In this document: positions 4,065 through 58,632 of the stretch, one piece after another
Numbering within the stretch: position 1 is the first letter of the stretch
How the letters are laid out: each line of letters begins with the position of its first letter
Source: Verrucomicrobiota bacterium
Lineage (GTDB): Bacteria > Verrucomicrobiota > Verrucomicrobiia > Opitutales > UBA953
Reading direction: 5' to 3'
DNA: 58,644 nucleotides
NCBI GenBank assembly: GCA_026397965.1
Contig: JAPLTU010000067.1
Coordinates: forward strand, 1-58,644
The notes under the pieces: model-generated
Database searches by the model: none
The model's input: only the letters and a program-made list of their open reading frames with translations
What the model was told of the DNA's origin: nothing
Position numbers and translations under genes: made by a program

Positions 4065-4108
4065 AGGGGGCACGTGGGCAAGGTGACACGTGGACAAGGG
4101 GGTTAATG

Positions 4109-4134: not shown

Positions 4135-4220
4135 GCTTTGGGCATAAAACCAAACTCAAAGGGAGACCGGAAACCGAATGGTTTAGTTCGTTCCAGGTAG
4201 CGGGTGGCAGCATTGCATCG

Positions 4221-4246
4221 GGTAGGGATGCGATGACATCGCAGCC
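4221..4246 (+). repeat. GGTAG-headed hairpin unit 1
   Basis: 26 bases: GGTAG, arm GGATGCGAT, loop GAC, arm ATCGCAGCC. The arms pair at eight of nine positions. Confidence 0.7.
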
Positions 4247-4334
4247 GCATATTCATACAAAGGTGACGGGTGACGGCCACCAGGGCATCAGCCATTCGGG
4301 GGACGGTATTTCAGCCATCGGCCATCGGGAGACG

Positions 4335-4360
4335 GGTAGGGTCGGGACAGCGTCACGACA
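4335..4360 (+). repeat. GGTAG-headed hairpin unit 2 (degenerate)
   Basis: 26 bases: GGTAG, arm GGTCGGGAC, loop AGC, arm GTCACGACA. The arms pair at seven of nine positions. Confidence 0.55.
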
Positions 4361-4372
4361 TAGTTGTATCGA

Positions 4373-4399
4373 GGTAGGGCTGGCCATCCTTGGCCGGCC
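4373..4399 (+). repeat. GGTAG-headed hairpin unit 3
   Basis: 27 bases: GGTAG, arm GGCTGGCCA, loop TCCT, arm TGGCCGGCC. The arms pair throughout with one T-G wobble. It lies 2 bases from unit 4 in the opposite orientation. Confidence 0.65.
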
Positions 4400-4401
4400 G
4401 C

Positions 4402-4428
4402 GGTTGAGCGAGGGCGCTCAACCCTACC
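4402..4428 (-). repeat. GGTAG-headed hairpin unit 4 (inverted)
   Basis: Read on the minus strand: GGTAG, arm GGTTGAGCG, loop CCCT, arm CGCTCAACC. The 9-bp stem is perfect. Together with unit 3 it forms a tail-to-tail pair. Confidence 0.7.
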
Positions 4429-4570
4429 TCAAGACAGAGGCAATAAAATCAAGGGGAAACCGGAAACCGGATGATGTGCTGGGGTGCTATATCCCAAGCT
4501 AACATTCCGGTTTCCGGTTCCCCTTTGCTTGATCTTCTTGTCCACGTGTCCCCTTGCCCACGTGTCCCCT

Positions 4571-58515: not shown

Positions 58516-58541
58516 GGTAGGGTCAGCACTGCGTGCTGACC
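58516..58541 (+). repeat. GGTAG-headed hairpin unit 5
   Basis: 26 bases: GGTAG, arm GGTCAGCAC, loop TGC, arm GTGCTGACC. A perfect 9-bp stem, 4 bases after the ispG stop codon. Confidence 0.8.
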
Positions 58542-58569
58542 TAGTCTGCCTCGCATCCGCCGTCATCAG

Positions 58570-58595
58570 GGTAGGGACAGCACCACGTGCTGTCC
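58570..58595 (+). repeat. GGTAG-headed hairpin unit 6
   Basis: 26 bases: GGTAG, arm GGACAGCAC, loop CAC, arm GTGCTGTCC. A perfect 9-bp stem. Confidence 0.8.
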
Positions 58596-58606
58596 TCTCT
58601 GCCTTG

Positions 58607-58632
58607 GGTAGGGCGGGCTCTCCGAGCCCGCC
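58607..58632 (+). repeat. GGTAG-headed hairpin unit 7
   Basis: 26 bases: GGTAG, arm GGCGGGCTC, loop TCC, arm GAGCCCGCC. A perfect 9-bp stem. The window ends 12 bases later, so more copies may follow. Confidence 0.8.

Follow-up and report, generated by a model that had tools for sequence, protein, structure and literature searches.

GTAG-type REP hairpins of a freshwater Opitutae genome and the RAYT lineages that they flank in related genomes

GTAG REPs have been sorted into 24 families, most of which split into sub-families whose stem residues differ but remain complementary, and in 2013 the verrucomicrobial Opitutus terrae was reported to hold several of these families together with head-to-head dimers spaced 1–2 bp apart (PMC3733652). 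The associated enzymes, RAYTs (TnpA-REP, REP-associated tyrosine transposases), bind REP hairpins that follow a GTAG in single-stranded DNA and cut them; for the TnpA-REP of Stenotrophomonas maltophilia K279a, cleavage is lowered by a mismatch in the stem and depends crucially on one base of the loop (PMC8266576). Recognition of perfect-palindrome REPs by RAYTs was called unresolved and then studied for two such enzymes only (PMC8266576). In Stenotrophomonas and fluorescent pseudomonads, many classes of REP have been described, each paired with a RAYT of its own, and relic REP families remaining after RAYT loss have been proposed for pseudomonads and stenotrophomonads (Nunvar 2013, PMC3686654).

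The window analysed here, a stretch of 58,644 nucleotides, contains seven hairpin units, all of which were found where the initial annotation had placed them (Table 1). All seven have GTAG at one end, a 9-bp stem and a loop of 3–4 bases, compared to a GTAG end, a 6–13 bp stem and a 2–4 base loop in the REPs of Di Nocera 2013 (PMC3733652). Complementary sub-families, several families per genome, head-to-head dimers as in O. terrae and REPtrons are likewise common to both, the likeness to the O. terrae families being one of description and not of consensus sequence. The units also resemble stenotrophomonad REPs, in which 8–9 perfect pairs directly follow GTAG (PMC3686654), and the REPs of the Group 3 TnpA-REP of K279a (REPtron Sm), where a perfect palindrome after GTAG, of 8 bp with a 3-base loop, flanks the gene in inverted copies (PMC8266576). 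The present set differs from that of Di Nocera 2013 in the link drawn between stem families and RAYT clades across a single genus, and from that of Nunvar 2013 in its phylum, its GGTAG head and its arm starting with GG; the biochemistry belongs to the K279a enzyme (PMC8266576), whereas the Opitutae RAYTs are known here from sequence alone. The initial annotation had set the units apart from ordinary REPs by their variable stems, a contrast that falls with the published alternative stem residues of most GTAG REP families (PMC3733652).

Table 1. The seven hairpin units, with coordinates in the window
Coordinates	Strand	Feature	Pairing	Remark
4221..4246	+	REP, ATGCGAT-GAC family	8/9	One mismatch
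4335..4360	+	Decayed REP-like hairpin	7/9	3′ arm ends in CA
4373..4399	+	REP, stem GGCTGGCCA, 4-base loop TCCT	8 pairs and one G-T	
4402..4428	-	REP, stem GGTTGAGCG, 4-base loop CCCT	9/9	Right half of dimer
58516..58541	+	REP, TCAGCAC-TGC family	9/9	
58570..58595	+	REP, ACAGCAC-CAC family	9/9	
58607..58632	+	REP, CGGGCTC-TCC family	9/9	

The partner arm had been said always to match and to end in CC; pairing is complete in units 4402, 58516, 58570 and 58607 but not in 4221, 4335 and 4373, and unit 4335 departs from the CC ending. Units 4373 and 4402 are the left and right halves of a dimer with GTAG on the outside and 2 bp between them. An Rfam search of the window gave no match. The window hairpins are real and far above chance: GGTAG hairpins with a loop of 3 or 4 bases numbered six at a threshold of at least 8/9 pairs and four at 9/9 pairs, compared to means of 0.01 and 0 in 100 dinucleotide shuffles.

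Copies are also abundant in the rest of the genome, of which 2.18 Mb in 89 contigs of an incomplete assembly was searched. A loose pattern gave 70 matches compared to 3 in a reversed control, and covariance models, a search that the initial annotation had proposed, gave 177 matches for the 3-base-loop form and 95 for the 4-base-loop form, with few places common to both; the genome total is about 250 GGTAG hairpins. Arm types were counted in 224 kb of genome stretches picked around matches, which is not an unbiased census. The 227 units listed there nearly all have at least 7/9 pairs and an arm ending in CC. Neighbouring pairs within 120 bp in these stretches were head-to-head in 69 cases and tail-to-tail in 9, and 28 head-to-head dimers have the 2-bp spacing and geometry of 4373/4402. 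Stems in this genome fall into about ten discrete families, most of which recur many times as exact copies. The commonest stems comprise GCAGCAC-CGC, TCAGCAC-TGC, ACAGCAC-CAC, ACGGCTC-TCC, CGGGCTC-TCC and ATGCGAT-GAC and, with CCCT-type loops, TTGAGCG and CTGACCA.

An associated RAYT gene, which the initial annotation had suggested looking for, was found twice in the source genome and many times in its relatives. Contig C66 carries an apparently intact RAYT between inverted GCAGCAC-CGC REP copies, of which the downstream copy is altered in its outer stem. Its protein matches the RAYT model NF047646 with an E value of 2.3e-19, the scores of the source-genome RAYTs falling below the model's own cut-off, and the solved TnpA-REP 4ER8 with an E value of 4.5e-7; H-L-H (HUH motif) is present in the RAYT sequence. 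The second RAYT, on contig C54, has a start that is shortened relative to its relative in locus L058, and is flanked by CTGACCA, TTGACCA and TTGAGCG REPs with a CCCT loop. The REPtron arrangement, a RAYT between inverted copies of a REP repeated in the genome, is present on C66, on C54 and in many relatives. RAYTs of the ATGCGAT, TCAGCAC, ACAGCAC and CGGGCTC families were not found among the loci fetched from the incomplete assembly of the source genome. A 314-aa Y1 transposase on contig C64 (locus L001, 430–1510) was rejected as a partner, its flanks being long unrelated repeats with the motif GGGGTCAG. Near-identical long palindromes with GGGGTCAGACCGCTTC lie on both sides of this gene, which resembles the RAYT-like elements flanked by TIRs (TIRtrons) described in PMC3733652.

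RAYTs were then compared across 79 genomes of the same family as the source genome, with presence scored from fetched loci only. A GTAG hairpin flanks 54 of the 74 RAYT-like genes read, mostly as an inverted pair in which the upstream REP lies on the gene's strand and the downstream REP on the opposite strand; most of the genes lacking one belong to a longer type characterised by an NHFH motif, and some were read from another genus. Stem mismatches climb with RAYT distance, from 0.09 of 9 bases between near-identical RAYTs to 4–5 of 9 between distant ones, and RAYTs with less than 40% residue difference have stems that differ at about 0.1–0.2 of 9 bases. The corresponding Mantel correlations were 0.74 and 0.77 (p 0.0005, 43 RAYTs) and, with one RAYT per family (n=17), 0.53 for upstream and 0.62 for downstream REPs (permutation p 0.0002). 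Genome G029 contains four RAYTs with four different REP types; the stem therefore tracks the RAYT rather than the host. The upstream and downstream stems of a single RAYT differ on average by 2.2 of 9 bases, compared to 4.4 of 9 between RAYTs. At many RAYTs (L064, L069, L242, L260 and others) the two stems are fixed but different, for example GGCGGCCAT upstream and GGACGTGAT downstream.

In the RAYT tree, REP type goes with clade, and TCAGCAC-TGC, ACAGCAC-CAC and GCAGCAC-CGC each correspond to one clade; the three clades are sisters whose proteins share 47–57% identity between clades, and their REPs differ by one covarying stem pair and loop bases. Residues separating the three clades were found in one alignment column only, which is too few for a reading. 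In another genus of the family, the RAYT model matched 13 times in genome G006 and 32 times in G008, in many cases in frames of 300–450 aa that cover model positions 70–146 only; these may represent a separate transposase family that has expanded.

Six of the seven window units are identical or close to hairpins flanking a RAYT lineage. The TCAGCAC-TGC REP of unit 58516, with 9 exact copies in the source genome, flanks RAYTs in L069, L222 and L230, and the ACAGCAC-CAC REP of unit 58570, with 8 exact copies, lies on both sides of RAYTs in L065, L066, L073, L076, L082, L218 and L224. The CGGGCTC stem of unit 58607 forms the REP upstream of the L061 RAYT and also adjoins the RAYT in L057, linking CGGGCTC-TCC to both. 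The ATGCGAT arms of unit 4221, whose family has perfect copies at other places in the genome, are also present on both sides of the RAYT in L056, to which ATGCGAT-GAC is linked. The TTGAGCG/CTGACCA stems belong with L058 and its relatives: the stem of unit 4402 adjoins the truncated RAYT on contig C54 (L002) and stands beside intact RAYTs in L058 and L068, and the stem of unit 4373 matches those at its RAYT neighbours approximately. For unit 4335, whose 5′ arm GGTCGGGAC is found again on contig C11, no cognate RAYT was found among the loci fetched.

In two of three families, copy number is higher in genomes where the cognate RAYT was found, by Mann-Whitney tests that ignore host relatedness. 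Exact copies had a median of 21 with the RAYT and 4.5 without it for the CAC family (p 9e-5), and of 25.5 and 3 for the CGC family (p 3e-4); the TGC family showed no clear effect (medians 3.5 and 1, p 0.09; p 0.5 among genomes holding any copies). Outside the genus, exact 25-mers of the three sister REPs are nearly absent, and reversed controls gave zero matches; the TGC 26-mer is present in many named freshwater Opitutae assemblies.

Taken together, the units are very probably GTAG-type REPs, each family spread by its own RAYT, with hairpins that diverged along with the RAYT lineages. This freshwater Opitutae genome holds several REP families side by side, each probably propagated by a RAYT, an HUH enzyme that would act on the hairpin in single-stranded form behind its GTAG. 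By analogy with the published work, the Opitutae RAYTs would bind, cut and mobilise these hairpins. As RAYT lineages diverged within the genus, the cognate hairpins would have diverged alongside, and, with the folded strand as the substrate of the RAYT, changes in one arm would have to be matched in the other, giving the covariation seen between families. The RAYTs of the other REP families here have probably been lost since or lie in the unassembled part, and such loss would leave relic REP families behind.

Could the hairpins instead be kept mainly as host RNA or DNA signals, for instance to end transcripts or bind proteins, and be mobile only incidentally? Host roles of REPs have been discussed (PMC3733652), and both window clusters are extragenic and downstream of genes, unit 58516 lying directly after the GcpE (ispG) stop and 4221–4428 between convergent genes. 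However, there are many families per genome, REP family content varies between genomes of one genus, and the repeats flank RAYTs, all of which are predictions of a mobile element, and we regard a primarily host-signal role as improbable.

It is very unlikely that a single recogniser reads only hairpin shape plus GGTAG, a mode of recognition that the initial annotation had suggested, while the stem bases drift freely under a pairing constraint. Such a recogniser would suit the head and stem length that are constant across families (GGTAG in 223 of the 227 units, from a search pattern that itself required GT(A/G)GG) and the loop and stem sequences that vary between them, and a hairpin plus a GTAG head is indeed the known mode of RAYTs (PMC8266576). 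The stem itself is not free, because most arm sequences recur exactly: the 117 perfect units listed in the 224 kb have 21 distinct 5′ arms, and 89% of the perfect copies belong to arms present at least three times. Stems are discrete and follow the RAYT lineage. The impression that arms differ in nearly every copy is correct inside the window, which has one or two members per family, but not in the genome. Each arm sequence marks a repeat family of its own, so that an outcome which the initial annotation had named as refuting its reading largely applies, except that the families are akin to one another and that related genomes carry a cognate RAYT for most of them. Seven of nine stem positions differ between families in a covariation count that took rows chosen for perfect pairing, so that its figure of 100% paired is circular.

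The stems GGGCGCCAC and GGGCGCGAC, together 53 copies, have the same G-T pair fixed at stem position 3. They often form a hetero-dimer about 65 bp apart (in L198, L196 and other stretches of the source genome); in L081 and in L249, the same two stems lie on the two sides of the RAYT. Least credible is the rebuilding of the second arm from the first, for example by template switching within the hairpin, a process that had been offered at the outset and is not needed: most copies pair perfectly while families differ at most positions, in rows chosen for perfect pairing, but whole units recur exactly, pointing to copying of the entire element, the G-T pair is retained in all 53 copies, and 55 imperfect copies outside that family keep one-arm or mixed-arm mismatches unrepaired, 7 of them combining arms from different families or variants. 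The covarying arms thus very probably reflect RAYT-hairpin coevolution, and neither free drift under recognition of shape alone nor arm rebuilding.

The new part is modest and consists of many RAYT-REP pairs densely sampled, the majority from a single genus. The 17 RAYT-REP combinations with different downstream stems are natural variants for the question of RAYT specificity, and the three sister clades, with hairpins one stem pair and loop apart, are part of that natural series. The genome is also a case of many REP families remaining with few surviving RAYTs. Tentatively, the RAYTs of one genus might form a series of mutually exclusive readers, with specificity set by stem pair 3 (T-A, A-T or G-C) and the loop (TGC, CAC or CGC), and the left and right ends of a REPtron might be told apart by their stems.

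Two other repeats lie around the first REP cluster of the window. An inverted repeat at 4447–4530, separate from the REPs, has 38-nt arms AAGGGGAAACCGGAAACCGGATG ... CATTCCGGTTTCCGGTTCCCCTT and a further arm at 4157–4183, and its core GGGGAAACCGGAAACCG is also present on contig C35. A 21-nt inverted pair at 4081–4101 and 4550–4570 (90%, AGGTGACACGTGGACAAGGGG) encloses the entire REP cluster.
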